NCBI RefSeq assembly: GCF_014925385.1
Contig: NZ_JACSDK010000010.1
Span: forward strand, 62,001-126,000
DNA: 64,000 bases
Direction: 5' to 3'
Origin: Pelagibius marinus
GTDB taxonomy: Bacteria > Pseudomonadota > Alphaproteobacteria > Kiloniellales > Kiloniellaceae
Each line of letters starts with the position of its first letter. Position 1 is the stretch's first letter. The position numbers and the translations under genes are program-made. A model generated the notes under the pieces. That model was not told where the DNA came from. It searched no databases and saw only the letters and a program-made list of their open reading frames with translations. Positions 8,826 through 15,392 of the stretch are shown here, piece after piece.

Positions 8826-11276
8826 ATGGCAGAGTTTCCTTCCACGGCAAAAGCGGTCGTCATCGGCGGCGGCATTGTCGGCTGTTCCACCGCCTACCAT
8901 CTCGGCAAGCTCGGCTGGACCGATACGGTCCTGATCGAGCGCCACAAGCTGACCTCCGGAACGACGTTTCACGCCGCCGGGCTGGTCGGCCAGCTGCGCT
9001 CCAACGCCAATATCACGCAGCTGCTGGGCAACTCAGTGGAGCTCTACAACACTCTGGAAGGGGAGACGGGACTCGCCACCGGCTGGAAGATGAACGGCGG
9101 CCTGCGTCTGGCCTGCAACGAGGAACGCTGGACGGAGGTCAAGCGCCAGGCCACCACCGCGCACTCCTTCGGGTTGGAGATGCACCTGATGACGCCGAAA
9201 GAGGCGCAGGAGCTCTGGCCGCTGATGACCGTCGACGACGTGGTCGGCGCCGCCTTCCTGCCGACCGACGGCCAAGCCAATCCCGCCGACATCACCCAGG
9301 CCTTGGCAAAAGGCGCACGCCAGAACGGCGTGAAGATCTTCGAGGATACCGCCGTGCTCTCCGTCGAGGTTGCGGACGGCAAGGTGAAGGCGGTGGTGAC
9401 CGACAAGGGGCGCATCGACTGCGAAGTGGTTGTCTGCTGCGCCGGGCAGTGGTCGCGCAGCCTGGCCGCCACCGTCGGCGTCAACGTGCCGCTGGTCTCG
9501 GTCGAGCATCAGTACATGGTGACCGAGCCCATCGAGGGCGTGCCGTCGAAGCTGCCGACCCTGCGCGATCCCGACCGCCTGACCTACTACAAGGAGGAGG
9601 TCGGTGGCCTGGTCATGGGCGGCTATGAGCCCAACCCCATTCCCTGGGCCATGGACGGCATTCCCGAGGGCTTCCACTACTCGCTGCTGGATTCCAACTT
9701 CGACCATTTCGAGCAGCTCATGGAACTGGCGCTGGGCCGCGTACCGGCGCTGGAAACCGCGGGCGTGCGCGAGCTGATCAACGGGCCGGAGAGCTTCACC
9801 CCCGACGGCAACTTCATCCTGGGTGAAGCGCCGGAGCTGAAGAACTTCTTCGTCGGCGCCGGCTTCAACGCCTTCGGCATCGCCGCCGGCGGCGGCGCGG
9901 GGCAGGCGCTGGCCGAATGGGTTCACGCCGGCGAGCCGCCCTACGACCTCTGGCCCGTCGATATCCGCCGCTTCGGGCGCCCGCACTTCGACACCGACTG
10001 GGTGCGCACCCGCACCCTGGAGGCCTACGGCAAGCACTACACCATCGCCTGGCCCTCGGAAGAGCACGACAGCGGGCGGCCCTGCCGCCGCTCACCGCTC
10101 TATGCCATCCTGAAGGAGCAGGGCGCCTGTTTCGGCGAGAAGCTGGGCTGGGAGCGGCCCAACTGGTACGCCGATGCGGCCAAGGGCGAGGAGGCCAGGG
10201 ACCGCTACAGCTTTGGCCGCCCCAACTGGTTCGAGCCGGTGGGGCGCGAGCACAAGGCGGCGCGCGAGGCCGCCGTGCTCTTCGACCAGTCGAGCTTCGC
10301 CAAGTTCGTCCTGAAGGGCCCCGACGCCGAGGACGCGCTGTCGTGGATCTGCGCCAACAACGTGGCCAAGCCGGTGGGCTCGCTGACCTACACCCAGATG
10401 CTGAACGACAAGGGCGGCATCGAGTGCGACCTGACGGTGGCGCGCACGGCCCACGACGAGTTCTACATCGTCACCGGCACCGGCTTCGCCACCCACGACT
10501 TCGACTGGATCAAGCGCAACATCCCGGATGGCATGAACGCGCAGCTCTTCGACGTCACCTCGGCCAACGCGGTGCTGTCGCTCATGGGCCCCAGGTCGCG
10601 CGACATCCTGGCGCAGGTGACCCGCGACGACGTCAGCAACGAGGGCTTCAAGTTCGGCACGGCGAAGCGCATCGGCATCGCCGGCTGCCCCGTGCTGGCC
10701 CTGCGCGTCACCTACGTGGGCGAGCTGGGCTGGGAGCTGCACCTGCCGACCGAGTACGCGGTCAACGTCTACGAGGCATTGATGAAGGCGGGCGAGGGCC
10801 ACGGCCTGGCCAATGCCGGCTACCGCGCCATCGAGACCCTGCGCCTGGAAAAGGGCTACCGCGCCTGGGGCAGTGACATCGGCCCTGACCACACGCCCGT
10901 CGAGGCCGGGCTCGGCTGGGCGGTGAAACTGAAGAAGAATATCGACTTCAAGGGCCGCGCCGCCATCGAGGCGCAGGTCTCCGGCGGCGTGAAGAAGATG
11001 CTGGCCTGCTTCACCGTCGAGAACCCCGAGGTCGTGCTGCTGGGCCGCGAGACCATCTACCGCGACGGCCAGCGTGTCGGCTGGCTGACCTCGGCGGGCT
11101 ACGGCCACACCGTCGGCAAGCCCATCGGCTACGGCTACGTGCGCAACTCGGCGGGCGTCGACGAGGGGTTCCTCACCTCCGGCAGCTATGAGTTGGAGGT
11201 GGCTGCGGAACGGGTTCCCTGTGCCCTGCACCTGGCGGCGCTCTATGATCCCCAGATGGCGCGGGTGAAAACCTAG
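8826..11276 (+). CDS. dimethylglycine/sarcosine dehydrogenase-like FAD + GcvT fusion
   Basis: An 816-residue fusion. The N-terminal FAD-dependent oxidoreductase domain (dinucleotide motif VVIGGGIVGCSTAYHL) carries SGTTFHAAG, whose His aligns with the covalent flavin site of dimethylglycine dehydrogenase. An FAO middle domain follows, then a C-terminal GcvT/aminomethyltransferase domain (from about residue 430; YTQMLNDKGGIECDLTVAR, YVGELGWELHLP, LEKGYRAWGSDI) that binds tetrahydrofolate and captures the released C1 unit. Such enzymes demethylate dimethylglycine, sarcosine or related amines. It is the last gene of the transporter-kinase operon. Its final 126 bp are duplicated at 14300-14425, and Rhs sequence begins two bases after its stop codon. 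Confidence 0.9.
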   Translation: MAEFPSTAKAVVIGGGIVGCSTAYHLGKLGWTDTVLIERHKLTSGTTFHAAGLVGQLRSNANITQLLGNSVELYNTLEGETGLATGWKMNGGLRLACNEERWTEVKRQATTAHSFGLEMHLMTPKEAQELWPLMTVDDVVGAAFLPTDGQANPADITQALAKGARQNGVKIFEDTAVLSVEVADGKVKAVVTDKGRIDCEVVVCCAGQWSRSLAATVGVNVPLVSVEHQYMVTEPIEGVPSKLPTLRDPDRLTYYKEEVGGLVMGGYEPNPIPWAMDGIPEGFHYSLLDSNFDHFEQLMELALGRVPALETAGVRELINGPESFTPDGNFILGEAPELKNFFVGAGFNAFGIAAGGGAGQALAEWVHAGEPPYDLWPVDIRRFGRPHFDTDWVRTRTLEAYGKHYTIAWPSEEHDSGRPCRRSPLYAILKEQGACFGEKLGWERPNWYADAAKGEEARDRYSFGRPNWFEPVGREHKAAREAAVLFDQSSFAKFVLKGPDAEDALSWICANNVAKPVGSLTYTQMLNDKGGIECDLTVARTAHDEFYIVTGTGFATHDFDWIKRNIPDGMNAQLFDVTSANAVLSLMGPRSRDILAQVTRDDVSNEGFKFGTAKRIGIAGCPVLALRVTYVGELGWELHLPTEYAVNVYEALMKAGEGHGLANAGYRAIETLRLEKGYRAWGSDIGPDHTPVEAGLGWAVKLKKNIDFKGRAAIEAQVSGGVKKMLACFTVENPEVVLLGRETIYRDGQRVGWLTSAGYGHTVGKPIGYGYVRNSAGVDEGFLTSGSYELEVAAERVPCALHLAALYDPQMARVKT
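11151..11276 (+). repeat. direct repeat, left copy (3' end of dehydrogenase gene)
   Basis: The last 126 bp of the dehydrogenase gene, including the stop. They match 14300-14425 with 11 mismatches and no gaps (about 91% identity). The two copies bracket the Rhs fragment island exactly. Confidence 0.9.
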
Positions 11277-11277
11277 G

Positions 11278-11862
11278 CGCTTCACTGGCGGCCCGGGCGG
11301 CGCGACGGACGTCGCCTACCTGCACGCCGACCACCTGGGCACGCCGCAGGCCATGACGGATGCCAATGCGCAGGTGCTGTGGTGGCGCGACCAGACGCCC
11401 TTCGGGCAGACGGTGACGGCGGGCGGCTTCAGCCAGAACCCCCTGCGCTTCCCCGGCCAGATCGCCGACGCCGAAAGCGGCCTCGCCTACAACTACTTCC
11501 GCGACTACGACCCGGCGCTGGGCCGCTACATCCAGAGCGACCCGATCGGGCTCGGGGGTGGGCTGAATACCTATGGGTATGTGGGGGGGAATCCGATTAG
11601 GTTTGTGGACCCGCAAGGGACGATATTATTTGAAATCTGTTCCATTATTCCGCAGCTTTGTTTTGGACCGGACAAGGGTGGTGGCGGGGGAAGCTGCCCA
11701 GCGCCCGATTGTGAAAAGGTGCGTCAGGAGTGCCTGAAGAAATGCTCCCGGCAGTTCGCAGATGATCCTAGTTCGCTCCCTGGTGGACGCAGCAATACAC
11801 CCAGCGGCATGAGAGTCTGTATTCGAGACTGTATGGCCGAACAGGGATGTTTCGACTACTAA
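11278..11862 (+). pseudogene. Rhs core fragment with Cys-rich C-terminal tip (5'-truncated)
   Basis: The reading frame is open from just after the dehydrogenase stop but has no start codon or ribosome site for an intact Rhs protein. It encodes the end of an Rhs repeat-associated core (DVAYLHADHLGTPQAMTDANA, NPLRFPGQIADAESGLAYNYFRDYDPALGRYIQSDPIGL, NTYGYVGGNPIRFVDPQG), then a variable tip of about 85 residues. The tip is Gly- and Cys-rich, with twin Cx3C motifs (ECLKKC and VCIRDC) plus four more Cys. GC content drops sharply at the core/tip boundary, as in polymorphic toxin tips. An internal ATG at 11353 could give a 169-aa protein. It is most likely a displaced tip module usable only after recombination with a full rhs gene. 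Confidence 0.75.
11281..11618 (+). repeat. Rhs core repeat, copy 1
   Basis: These 338 bp align without gaps to 12549-12886 at a constant offset of 1268 bp. Identity is high across the core and ends where the two tips diverge. It is a natural substrate for homologous recombination that would exchange or delete tips. Confidence 0.9.
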
Positions 11863-11894
11863 ATGGGAGAAGTGGAATGTGACGGGGATTGAAG

Positions 11895-12140
11895 ATGGAA
11901 CGAAAGACCGCAATTAAGCTCCTTGCTACAATCGAAGCAATGGCACCACAGTTTGACGAAATCACTTCGTTGACCTATGAGATTGTTGATGAGACGGAGC
12001 GTAAGGAATTTAGGGAGAAAGTTGCAGAAGCAATGAGTCTCTTGGCGTATGATCTCGTGATGCAGATTGTTCGACAGTACCCAGATCTAGATCCGGACAA
12101 AGAACGCTATAGCCGTTCTTCGTCCAGCAATGAACCCTAA
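11895..12140 (+). CDS. small orphan protein, putative immunity partner of Rhs tip 1
   Basis: An 81-residue acidic, helical, cytosolic protein (MERKTAIKLLATIEAMAPQF, ETERKEFREKVAEAMSLLAYDLVMQIV) with no recognised domain. GGGG lies 7-8 bases before the ATG; an in-frame TTG at 11889 is an alternative start. It follows the tip gene by 32 bases and has the same low GC, the arrangement of an immunity gene behind a polymorphic toxin. It has no signal peptide, so its target would be in the cytoplasm. Function is inferred from position only. Confidence 0.5.
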   Translation: MERKTAIKLLATIEAMAPQFDEITSLTYEIVDETERKEFREKVAEAMSLLAYDLVMQIVRQYPDLDPDKERYSRSSSSNEP

Positions 12141-13424
12141 CGTGTAGGTCTGCGCGGCGGGCAGTGGAACGAGCTGGGGGTCTTCAGCTTCACCGGCGGG
12201 CAGGACTACGCAATCACCCTCACGGACGACGCCAACGGCACGGTGGTGGCCGACGCGCTCTACATCGTGAAGGTGGAGCCGCTGAGCGACGCCGTCACCT
12301 GGGCGCCGTCCCTGCCGGCCAGCGGCACTTACCAGGTCTATGCCAAGTGGACCGCCGATGAGACGCGGGCCACGGACGCAAGCTACTCAATCGTCCACAG
12401 CGGCGGCACGGCGGCGGTGACCGTGAACCAGCGGGTCGGCGGCGGCCTTTGGCACTACCTCGGAAGCTATGCCTTCGATCCTTTGAGCAACCCGACGGTG
12501 ACGCTGGCGGCCAAGGCCAACGGCAGCGTGGCGGCCGATGCGATCCGCTTCGTCGGCGGGCCGGGCGGGGCGACGGACGTCGCCTACCTGCATACGGATC
12601 ACCTGGGCACGCCGCAGGCGATGACCGATGCCAATGCCCAGGTGCTGTGGTGGCGCGACCAGACGCCCTTCGGGCAGGCGGTGGCCACGGGCGGCTTCAG
12701 CCAGAACCCCTTGCGCTTCCCCGGCCAGATCGCCGACGCCGAAAGCGGCCTCGCCTACGACTATTTCCGAGACTACGACCCGGCGCTGGGGCGATACATC
12801 CAGAGCGACCCGATTGGACTGGGGGGCGGGCTCAACACCTATGGGTATGTGGGCGGGAATCCAATTGGAAGGATTGACCCGCGAGGACTCGATCTCATTC
12901 TCATAGGCGAGAATGGTGGGTTGGGCAAATTATTCGAACTGGCAGCCAAGACGTGGGATAGAGAGAACTGCGGTTGCAATGAAATCGTACACGTTGGGAC
13001 CGGAGATGAAGCTGTTGAAGCGATTGAGAGCTATGCATCTAGAAACAATGGTGTCGACGGCCTTCAAGTATTTGCGCACAGCGCGTCGGACGGCGTCTAT
13101 TTTAACCAAGGGGTAACGATTAACAGTCTCTATTCTGATGGTGCGGGGTGGTGGCTCTCTTATGTTCCCGGCGGCCAGGCGAGAATCGAGGAGATTGACC
13201 CAGATTTGTTTAAGCCCGGCGCGACGATTCAGCTCTTTGGCTGCAACACAGGTGATGGAGATACTTCATTCGCTGAAGCGCTTGCAAAGCATCTTGGAAG
13301 GCCGGTGACAGGTTCGCAGAGTCCAACTCATTTTGAGCCGAGTAACATTCGGAGCGACTACAAGGGGGCCGTTCGCATGGTCCCCGATAATCCGAAAAAG
13401 GGATGGACGACCTACAAACCTTAA
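12141..13424 (+). pseudogene. Rhs fragment with golvesin-like domain and caspase-like tip (5'-truncated)
   Basis: The frame is open directly after the upstream TAA but lacks the N-terminus of an Rhs protein; an internal GTG/ATG near 12243 could start a 393-aa product. Order: the end of one golvesin-type carbohydrate-binding-like domain and a second complete one (LPASGTYQVYAKWTADETRATDASYSI, then VTVNQRVGGGLWHYLGSYAF), the Rhs core (DVAYLHTDHLG to NTYGYVGGNPIG, IDPRG), then a 175-residue tip. In the tip, VFAHSASDGVYF and IQLFGCNTGDG supply His and Cys at positions like those of DUF4347-type, caspase-fold (clan CD) proteins. This suggests a cysteine-protease toxin. Lower GC in the tip supports acquisition. 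Confidence 0.7.
12549..12886 (+). repeat. Rhs core repeat, copy 2
   Basis: Partner of 11281-11618. It encodes the same core residues with a few substitutions (for example LAYDYFRDY against LAYNYFRDY). After the DPxG motif the two sequences become unrelated. Confidence 0.9.
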
Positions 13425-13439
13425 TGTTGGTGAGGAATA

Positions 13440-13958
13440 ATGAGAGTCTCCGTTTTCCGACAGGTGCTTTGTGTGATTGCTGTGACGTTCCTTCTCGCAG
13501 GGTGTACGCGGCCGCCAGGAGACCTTTTCGACAAGATGATGGCGACAGACAACAATGAGGATTTCAGGTTTCTTTCGGCACAGGCGATGGAGCTTGGAAA
13601 GGATTCAATTCCAATTTTTCTTGCCATCCTATCTCGCGAGATCCCGCCAGAACGCAAGCTCTCGGTCATTGAGTTAAGCAAAAATGGCGTTTGCTTGACT
13701 CGCTTAAATGATCTGGCCAAGGAAGGAATCTATAGCATCTTTGAGATCCCAATTTTGCTCAGGCATATGGAGCAAGAACCTTTCGACCTCCATGCATCGC
13801 TCATTCCGGCGGAGACCCTGAGGTTGATCACCGGGCTGGATGTCGGTTATAGCGAACAGTTCGTGGCAGGCTACACTAAAGCCGATGAGCCGAGACGGAA
13901 AAAAATGCTCTCTGCTTGGCGAAATTGGTACGAGGAGAAGATAGCAAGTGAAGGTTAG
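13440..13958 (+). CDS. lipoprotein, putative immunity protein of Rhs tip 2
   Basis: A 172-residue lipoprotein. Its signal peptide ends in the lipobox LLAGC (Cys near residue 22), and the start has a good GTGAGG site. The mature part is helical (FRFLSAQAMELGKDSIPIFL, RRKKMLSAWRNWYEEKI) and reminiscent of HEAT-type helices. It begins 15 bases after the caspase-like tip and shares its low GC, as expected for a toxin-immunity pair. Membrane anchoring suggests that the matching toxin acts in the periplasm. No family was recognised. Confidence 0.6.
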   Translation: MRVSVFRQVLCVIAVTFLLAGCTRPPGDLFDKMMATDNNEDFRFLSAQAMELGKDSIPIFLAILSREIPPERKLSVIELSKNGVCLTRLNDLAKEGIYSIFEIPILLRHMEQEPFDLHASLIPAETLRLITGLDVGYSEQFVAGYTKADEPRRKKMLSAWRNWYEEKIASEG

Positions 13959-14043
13959 TGCTGAGTTGTGGGCAGCAATATTACATTGCTGAAGGGCAAC
14001 GATTTCTACGCCATGGTCACTTGTGAGCCGGTTGCGGCCAATT

Positions 14044-14310
14044 CTATTCCCCGGCGACGGCTCAGGCTCGGTGGTGCTGACCGACCAGGCGGACGGCAGG
14101 GTCATCGCCGATGCCGTGCGCCTGACCGCCGATCCCTCGGCAGTGCGCACGGCGAGCTGGACCTACAGCGCGGCCGAGAGCGGCGACTACCGGGTCTTCG
14201 CGCGCTGGCCGGAAGGCGAGGGGCATGCCACCAACGCCCCCTACACGATCGAGCACGACGGCGGCAGCAGCCTGGTCACGGTGAGCCAAGCCCAGCGCTG
14301 TGGGTGTTGA
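14044..14310 (+). pseudogene. golvesin-like domain fragment of an Rhs protein
   Basis: This fragment encodes DGSGSVVLTDQADGRVIADA and ESGDYRVFARWPEGEGHATN, then APYTIEHDGGSSLVTVSQAQ: the end of one golvesin-like domain and most of another, homologous to the segment at 12150-12440. The domain stops abruptly after VTVSQAQ, where sequence of the dehydrogenase 3' end takes over. It has no start and no Rhs core. It is the right-hand remnant of the Rhs island and shows that the island was cut by recombination at this point. Confidence 0.75.
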
Positions 14311-14425
14311 CGAGGCCTTCCTGACCTCCGGCAGCTATGAGCTGGAGGTGGCTGCGGAACGGATTCCTTGTGCCCTGCACCTGGAGGCGCTCTATGATCC
14401 GCAGATGGCGCGGGTGAAAACCTAG
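14300..14425 (+). pseudogene. remnant: duplicated 3' end of dehydrogenase gene (right direct repeat)
   Basis: It encodes 41 residues plus stop (VGVDEAFLTSGSYELEV, AAERIPCALHL, then EALYDPQMARVKT). The residues differ from the intact gene's end at only a few positions (A for G, I for V, E for A, plus one near the junction). Most of the 11 nucleotide differences are at third codon positions, so this copy diverged while under protein-level selection. It may be the original 3' end of this gene or the end of a lost paralogue. Confidence 0.85.
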
Positions 14426-14459: not shown

Positions 14460-15392
14460 GTGCGCCTGCTGTGCCTGCTTTTCCTTCTCCTTCTGCCCTG
14501 CGCCGCCGCGGCGGAGAGCACCGGCACGCCCAGGTTTGTCGTTTACTACAATTCCGATGTCAGCCCGGCTGAGGATCTGATCGGGCTGCCGTACAGCCAT
14601 GTCATCCTTTCCTTCGTGACCCTGTCGGGCGGCCTTAAGCTGGCGCCCGATCCACGCCTGGAGGCGCCTCTGGCGGCGGTCGGCAGGTTGCAGGCGGACG
14701 GCAAGAAGGTGCTGATCTCCTTCGGCGGCGGCGACATGCGCTTGGAGGCCTACCGTCCGGCCGTCGGCCGGGAAGCCGCGCTGGCCGCCGTGCTTGCCGG
14801 CTTTGTTGCCGAGCACGGCCTGGACGGCGTCGACATTGACTTCGAGATTGACGCGGCCTTGCAGCGCCCGCCCGCGAAGGGCGCCTTCGACGGCCGGGCC
14901 TTTCTCGTGGCTCTGAGCCGGGAACTGCGCAAGGCCCTGCCGGAGGGCGCGCTGATCACCCATGCCCCGCAGGCGCCCTATCTGGATCCGCGCTGGCACG
15001 GCGGTCCCTACCTCGACATTCTGCGCCAGGCCGGGACCGACATCGACTGGATCATGGTCCAGTACTACAACAACCCGGATTTCGACCTCCCCATCGCCAG
15101 CCATCTTGTCGGTGCCGAAAAGGACCCTTTCCCGGTTTCCTATGCGGGGATCACCGGCGGCGTCCTGGGCTTTGCCTGGCCGGCGCAGAAAACTCTCGTC
15201 GGCCTGCCGATCTACCGGGATGATGCGAGCAACGGTTTTCAGCCGCCCGAGGTGGTGCGGGATCAGATCGTGGCGCCGCTGGTGTCCCGCTATGGCGCGG
15301 ACTTCGGCGGGCTCGGCGGCTGGCAGTTCTCGACGCACACCGCCGATCATCGCTACTGGAACGAAAGGTTGGCCCCGGCGCTTAGGCCTTGA
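14460..15392 (+). CDS. GH18-family glycoside hydrolase (chitinase-like), secreted
   Basis: A 310-residue protein with a signal peptide (MRLLCLLFLLLLPCAAAAES) and a GH18 TIM barrel. The catalytic DxxDxDxE motif is complete (LDGVDIDFEI, about residues 121-130), so acid catalysis is expected. VLISFGGGDMR matches the SxGG strand and MVQYYNN the conserved MxYD-type strand. It lacks carbohydrate-binding modules. The start is GTG at 14460, 10 bases after AGAGG. It would hydrolyse chitin-like or peptidoglycan-derived GlcNAc polymers, or bind glycans. It stands directly downstream of the Rhs island. Confidence 0.85.
   Translation: MRLLCLLFLLLLPCAAAAESTGTPRFVVYYNSDVSPAEDLIGLPYSHVILSFVTLSGGLKLAPDPRLEAPLAAVGRLQADGKKVLISFGGGDMRLEAYRPAVGREAALAAVLAGFVAEHGLDGVDIDFEIDAALQRPPAKGAFDGRAFLVALSRELRKALPEGALITHAPQAPYLDPRWHGGPYLDILRQAGTDIDWIMVQYYNNPDFDLPIASHLVGAEKDPFPVSYAGITGGVLGFAWPAQKTLVGLPIYRDDASNGFQPPEVVRDQIVAPLVSRYGADFGGLGGWQFSTHTADHRYWNERLAPALRP

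Follow-up and report, generated by a model that had tools for sequence, protein, structure and literature searches.

A stranded fragment of an Rhs tip/immunity array behind a metabolic gene of Pelagibius marinus

Displaced toxin tips and immunity genes have been described in several bacterial systems. Orphan rhs-CT/rhsI and cdiA-CT/cdiI modules are found behind main rhs and cdiA genes (PMC3150448, Poole 2011; PMC3967940, Koskiniemi 2014; PMC4927057), orphan immunity genes and mobile arrays are represented by Serratia RhsI and by arrays of Bacteroidales (both as cited in PMC10539506), and immunity-gene arrays of Vibrio cholerae are proposed to arise by homology-facilitated illegitimate recombination (PMC5361080). 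PA0256, a DUF4347 protein, is a putative toxin of the type VI secretion system (T6SS; PMC8262886). In these sources displaced cassettes, their exchange from strain to strain and orphan immunity are already known. What is new is that a fragment of such an array lies stranded in an unrelated operon, with junctions that can still be read: a block of three headless Rhs pieces at 11278-14304 of a 64-kb stretch of the Pelagibius marinus genome. This whole stretch is called the window (G000:C10:62001-126000), and all positions are coordinates within it. The P. marinus genome (G000) is a 5.44-Mb draft in 35 contigs, 98.35% complete; G004 is its closest sister genome, and L-numbers (L069, L070 and L102) denote loci taken from relatives.

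An earlier note, made from the sequence of the window alone, had described three headless Rhs pieces behind a metabolic gene, and this arrangement is indeed present (Table 1). The first piece joins an Rhs core to a Cys-rich tip and a small partner gene, the second joins a golvesin part to another core, a DUF4347-like tip and a lipoprotein gene, and the third is a golvesin scrap alone. The 338-bp core repeat is gap-free, as had been noticed, with 300 of its 338 bases identical between the two cores (11278-11615 against 12546-12883) and 91% identity over the first 300 bases. Both cores are matched above the curated cut-offs by Pfam RHS and NCBIfam Rhs_assc_core, the latter aligned to its end or to the last position but one, and by eye they end in DPQG and DPRG, the DPxG tip boundary expected of orphan Rhs tip/immunity modules. 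The golvesin-like domains reported earlier are recovered by Pfam in the second piece. The scrap by itself has no Pfam match; it resembles part of the full Rhs protein of G004, where its counterpart is contiguous with that of cassette 2. G+C is 0.46-0.56 in the tips and partners against 0.66-0.73 in the cores and golvesin stretches (0.53 in tip 1 versus about 0.67-0.71 in the core), and each variable tip is directly followed by a small gene.

The family assignment of the tips is less firm. Tip 2 had been called caspase-like, and a resemblance to DUF4347 (PF14252) stands behind that label, at 22.0 bits in P. marinus and 23.0 bits in G004, both below the curated cut-off of 24.6; there is no other basis for the name. 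Residues H64 and C119 of this tip are what we take to be a candidate dyad. Against anti-phage defence families tip 2 gave one weak match only (E 0.069), and against solved structures it gave four matches up to E 10, of which the best two, to antibody chains (E 0.003 and 0.016), were taken as chance. The Cys-rich tip 1 matches no family at the curated cut-offs of Pfam and NCBIfam, apart from a weak resemblance to Defensin_big (E 0.023), and none of the PADLOC defence families; a tblastn comparison with 15 loci gave no match across its Cys-rich part, and no genome-wide search was made with the tip itself. Among plasmid homologues tip 2 has one weak match (29%) and the lipoprotein none.

The junctions of the block, and a flanking duplication that the earlier note overlooked, indicate that it arrived from elsewhere. 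The metabolic gene, which from its domain set we take to be DMGDH, has its 3' end present twice, and the two copies, identical at 111 of 121 bases, bracket the block (target duplication size 121-134 bp). G004 has this 3' end in a single copy with no insert and with the GH18 gene directly behind it, at a distance of 34 bp from the DMGDH stop codon if the aligned TTG is the start. The alignment of the two genomes runs on at both sides of the insert, and the DMGDH proteins are 98% identical. Because G004 has an uninterrupted DMGDH-GH18 site here and its rhs locus elsewhere, the block is a translocated array fragment that was moved in; the remains of a locus dismantled in place, which had been offered as one explanation, are not supported. 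Neither gene was broken, since the stop codon of DMGDH is retained and the native sequence upstream of GH18 is still in place, and the block is not a misassembly of identical copies, because the flanking repeats differ. The left junction lies immediately after the DMGDH stop codon, and the right junction lies at the 10-mer CGCGGCGGGC, which in G004 is present both in DMGDH and in the rhs locus, there in five golvesin copies. The plus strand of the window contains CGCGGCGGGC at 12153 only, the minus strand at two places.

Other routes of insertion were considered and rejected. Site-specific or insertion sequence-mediated insertion was set aside on the size of the target duplication and on the lack of a transposase or integrase, none being found by Pfam in the block's five main frames. 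A two-step insertion, with DMGDH sequence left of 12150, was rejected because similarity to the sequence upstream in DMGDH is no better than that of shuffles (P 0.15 and 0.38). Fusion of DMGDH to core 1, or translational read-through into it, was also dismissed, as DMGDH ends in TAG and core 1 lies in another frame.

The sister genome carries an array resembling the presumed source. Its full rhs, an open frame of 2745 amino acids, encodes DUF6531, RHS repeats, a core and seven golvesin stretches. Behind it stand five displaced cassettes, each with a core, and then a golvesin scrap; the locus is 62-80 kb from the G004 DMGDH gene. One of the five cassettes is the counterpart of cassette 2 (93.8% over 2172 alignment columns), and the cores of the block are 89-90% identical to the G004 main core. 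A frame change breaks the golvesin part of the counterpart cassette (L069:13833-13900), whose tip and partner have open frames. The full rhs (L069:1-6127, L070:1-6874) stands between genes of type II secretion system kind (secretin, PilN and GspK) and a phage-type integrase. Since the G004 Rhs has, by eye, a hydrophobic Sec-like leader at its N-terminus and is encoded near secretin and GspK genes, its delivery route may differ from the T6SS. T6SS delivery of the Rhs tips was rejected and is unlikely in this genus set, as VipA (PF05591) was found in 0 of 8 genus genomes, P. marinus included, with the Escherichia coli positive control detected. The contig ends G000:C10:1-151 and G000:C11:1-97 carry the same repeat, which is also found at L070:15497-15646 of G004.

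Relatives of the golvesin and core parts are found in 20 of 58 genomes including P. marinus; tip 2 and the lipoprotein each occur in 2 of 61, namely P. marinus and G004. The small partner of cassette 1 is matched in 3 of 61 genomes: P. marinus, G005 (76%) and G013 (27%, weak), not G004. The G005 homologue (L102:1468-1713, contig G005:C221, minus strand) is solitary, beside a frame that by eye encodes an ATP-binding cassette transporter ATPase, and the G005 genome has no golvesin or Rhs core match at E 0.001.

No main rhs was recovered in the P. marinus assembly. The absence of an N-terminal Rhs part, reported earlier for the block, extends to the genome, in which DUF6531 was not found (0 of 1 genome). 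Protein searches with golvesin, core and tip and with the C-terminal 1201 amino acids of the G004 Rhs returned only the block, all candidates having been scored, and a DNA search with the block returned only itself among the best 40 of 167 candidates. With the G004 flank on the type II secretion side, the best 40 of 621 candidates gave the block's golvesin and two matches of less than 60 bp. With the G004 rhs head and the flank on the integrase/methylase side, the best 40 of 141 candidates yielded 12 short matches. All of these fell outside the head, and the longest of them (77% over 461 bp) lay at the far end of the query. The earlier description of displaced cassettes without a full rhs therefore holds in the window and, by these searches, in the assembled genome, where no other Rhs with the same core was found. 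Absence of a main rhs is not proven, because the assembly is a draft.

Comparison of the two genomes indicates that cassette 2 has a history of its own. Between P. marinus and G004, 8 of 540 bases differ in tip 2 and 9 of 519 in the lipoprotein gene; the golvesin stretch differs at 35 of 393 bases with 21 gap columns, core 2 at 32 of 339, and the golvesin scrap at 23 of 263 with 2 gap columns. The tip and lipoprotein together (17 of 1059) are significantly less diverged than golvesin and core together (67 of 732; Fisher P 1e-13, with the scrap outside the test). Synonymous divergence (dS) is 0.060 in the tip and 0.017 in the lipoprotein gene, compared with 0.375 in core 2, and the 9 synonymous differences in 236 sites of tip and lipoprotein compare with values of 0.155-0.368 in DMGDH and another six genes of the neighbourhood. 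As the tip and lipoprotein are far closer to G004 than the core, the golvesin stretch and the neighbour genes are, they were shared between the species after their split, the exchanged part beginning about where the tip starts and ending behind the partner. Core 2 differs from its counterpart by 25 synonymous and 7 nonsynonymous changes (P 4e-10 against neutrality), and this excess of synonymous differences suggests that most of its divergence probably arose under constraint, before stranding.

The 3' part of DMGDH also varies sharply in its closeness to G004. Positions 10401-11000 are identical at 598 of 600 bases, followed by 14 differences in 11111-11271 (about 91%), and the last 121 bases of the gene contain 11 differences; the pattern over 10401-11271 resembles that of a tract recently recombined between species, with its end beside the duplication.

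We favour, at about an even chance, the explanation that an array fragment was illegitimately inserted in a DMGDH-GH18 operon, leaving the partners expressible by read-through and the tips silent. Its foundations, which the compared sequences show, are the fragment nature of the block, the duplication, the uninterrupted sister site, the source-like sister array, the failure to find a main rhs in the assembly and the recent sharing of the tip and lipoprotein cassette between species. The source would have been a piece of an Rhs tip/immunity array, severed so that its left end falls within a core and its right end within a golvesin repeat. Illegitimate, microhomology-guided recombination, perhaps by template switching or by the filling of a staggered break, would have placed it in the tail of what is presumably one operon, and the DMGDH 3' end would have been duplicated over about 121-134 bp. 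The tips would be silent for want of a head and of a Shine-Dalgarno (SD) sequence at the listed starts, ATG 11353 and position 12243, where none was detected. Both partner genes, the lipoprotein gene with an SD of AGGA and the small partner gene with a three-base match, could be expressed through read-through from DMGDH, which shares its orientation with the block; the block contains one terminator-like site, where chance alone would give 3.2. If the partners confer a benefit at all, it may be immunity against relatives in which a full Rhs carries these tips.

Several observations weigh against this explanation. At the left junction the microhomology with the array is only about 2 bp, and at the right the 10-mer CGCGGCGGGC is read from G004, both sides having since changed in P. 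marinus. Among the in-frame starts of the first two pieces, only TTG 13206 has an SD match of at least four bases, and this start, preceded by an SD-like AGGAG, lies inside the supposedly silent tip 2. A promoter scan gave 1 site against 1.3 expected, and none stood out. Tip 2 differs from G004 by 7 synonymous changes and 1 nonsynonymous change, the lipoprotein by 2 and 7 (Fisher P 0.015). The tip thus looks constrained, a state that may predate the insertion, while the ratio of nonsynonymous to synonymous divergence (dN/dS) of the lipoprotein, from small counts, is about 1 and does not favour a maintained immunity function. An apparently constrained toxin side next to a partner side without such a sign is the reverse of the expectation for a pure immunity bank. 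Under a simple Poisson clock, with copy 2 of the DMGDH end taken to have been free to drift from the time of insertion, the 10 differences in 121 bases between the copies are too many both for the tip, which has a single nonsynonymous change in its 413 sites (P about 1e-5), and for the cassette, which has 9 synonymous changes among 236 sites (P 8e-4). The copies are therefore more diverged than the cassette predicts, and a single insertion with only quiet drift since then does not explain the data. Two histories would: a G004-like array may have overwritten the cassette once the block was stranded, or another lineage may have supplied the insertion and copy 2 together.

Table 1 Features of the Rhs block and its flanks in the window
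Feature	Position	Strand	Evidence
DMGDH-like FAD (flavin adenine dinucleotide) oxidoreductase/GCV_T gene, intact, 816 amino acids	8826..11276	+	Pfam DAO, FAO_M, GCV_T and GCV_T_C
DMGDH 3' end, copy 1 (coding copy)	11156..11276	+	10 differences in 121 versus copy 2
Rhs core 1, left side truncated directly after the DMGDH stop codon	11278..11615	+	RHS and Rhs_assc_core matches
Cys-rich tip of cassette 1, low G+C	11616..11862	+	Open reading frame ends at 11862; no ribosome-binding site of its own found
Small partner gene, 81 amino acids, putative immunity	11895..12140	+	Open reading frame; weak SD
Golvesin-like repeats of cassette 2, beginning at the 'RGGQW' phase	12150..12545	+	Golvesin_C, E 2e-34
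Rhs core 2	12546..12887	+	RHS and Rhs_assc_core matches
Cassette 2 tip, DUF4347-like	12888..13424	+	DUF4347, 22.0 bits (below cut-off)
Lipoprotein partner, 172 amino acids, putative immunity	13440..13958	+	LLAGC lipobox by eye; own SD AGGA
Golvesin scrap, start of the next cassette, truncated at the right junction	14011..14304	+	72% amino acid identity to the G004 Rhs
DMGDH 3' end, copy 2, and native downstream sequence	14305..14425	+	Repeat comparison
GH18 gene	14460..15392	+	Glyco_hydro_18, E 1.7e-15; directly behind DMGDH in G004

The block may instead be recent debris that arrived by chance, has no useful expression and keeps open frames only through short residence; another lineage may perhaps have supplied it with the insertion already made, copy 2 and the flank of copy 2 included. 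We regard this as rather unlikely but a real contender: no main rhs was found in the assembly, the pieces lack a head and SD sequences at the listed tip starts, the dN/dS of the lipoprotein is about 1, and the nearly identical DMGDH tract followed by a divergent end suggests that exchanged tracts probably exist at this very spot. If copy 2 is neutral and was not imported, however, the divergence of the copies makes the block too old for a tip with a single nonsynonymous change. The earlier note had held that plain debris would be marked by the lack of any other core in the genome together with in-frame decay of both tips in related strains; no other core was found in the assembly, but tip 2 shows no decay (99.4% amino acid identity to G004, no stops). 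A silent store of tips, kept for recombination onto a main rhs in the manner of the orphan Rhs of Salmonella, for which PMC3967940 offers a precedent, had also been proposed. The mutual identity of the cores, their closeness to the G004 main core and the exchange of cassette 2 between species would suit such a store, which is possible in principle; it is improbable here, as no rhs to receive a tip was found in the assembly, and it would need an incoming array or a strain still carrying one. That a main rhs and its array are simply missing from the assembly, the block being an outlying copy only, is very improbable. Long repeats collapse easily, and the genome is an incomplete draft in many contigs, but the neighbours of the G004 rhs are hardly found in P. 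marinus (both flank searches, best 40 candidates each), and the block, whose flanking repeats differ, is itself no misassembly of identical copies.

A further proposal, which we consider unlikely, is that cassettes move as one-period array units, excised between golvesin repeats and settling at short GC-rich matches, with exchange continuing after stranding. Cassette 2 and the golvesin scrap make up one array period, which begins at 12150 and stops at 14304 in the same golvesin phase, at CGCGGCGGGC, and in G004 DMGDH the same 10-mer sits where copy 2 begins. The cassette resembles G004 too closely for the age of the flanking duplication, so that on this proposal the stranded array would have continued to exchange cassettes between species. 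Both ends of cassette 2 (12153 and 14304) are at the same golvesin phase, at CGCGGCGGGC.

Under the favoured explanation of illegitimate insertion, the block shows a displaced Rhs cassette array after its departure from the original locus; both junctions can be read, and the sister species offers an uninterrupted site for comparison. The exit route of orphan toxin/immunity modules from their loci thereby becomes testable, and the question is raised whether immunity genes can be kept through a borrowed metabolic promoter after the weapon has been lost. Literature searches of limited depth found no paper on such a stranded fragment, which is weak evidence: those for golvesin with Rhs and for Pelagibius with Rhs returned none, and those for remote orphan Rhs returned only unrelated papers.

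The block resembles each of the known systems in some respects. Like PA0256, it has a DUF4347-type domain in a putative antibacterial toxin, here below the Pfam cut-off and attached to an Rhs core. Like the arrays of Vibrio cholerae, it may owe its origin to the illegitimate joining proposed for displaced modules; there insertion takes place at the effector locus, whereas here it concerns an unrelated operon, with a target duplication of 121-134 bp. As in orphan immunity arrays, putative immunity genes that lack a matching effector fit for deployment could give protection from relatives, but the block retains headless toxin tips, and no T6SS VipA was found. With the orphan rhs-CT/rhsI and cdiA-CT/cdiI modules it shares headless core fragments, variable tips each with a small downstream gene, tips mostly without translation signals, near-identical cassettes between strains and a sharp boundary between core and tip. 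Those modules lie downstream of a main rhs or cdiA gene in the same genome, as the G004 array does, whereas the block lies behind a metabolic gene in a draft in which no main gene was found. Because it resembles the orphan Rhs modules and departs from them in location, we regard the block as a variant of this class.

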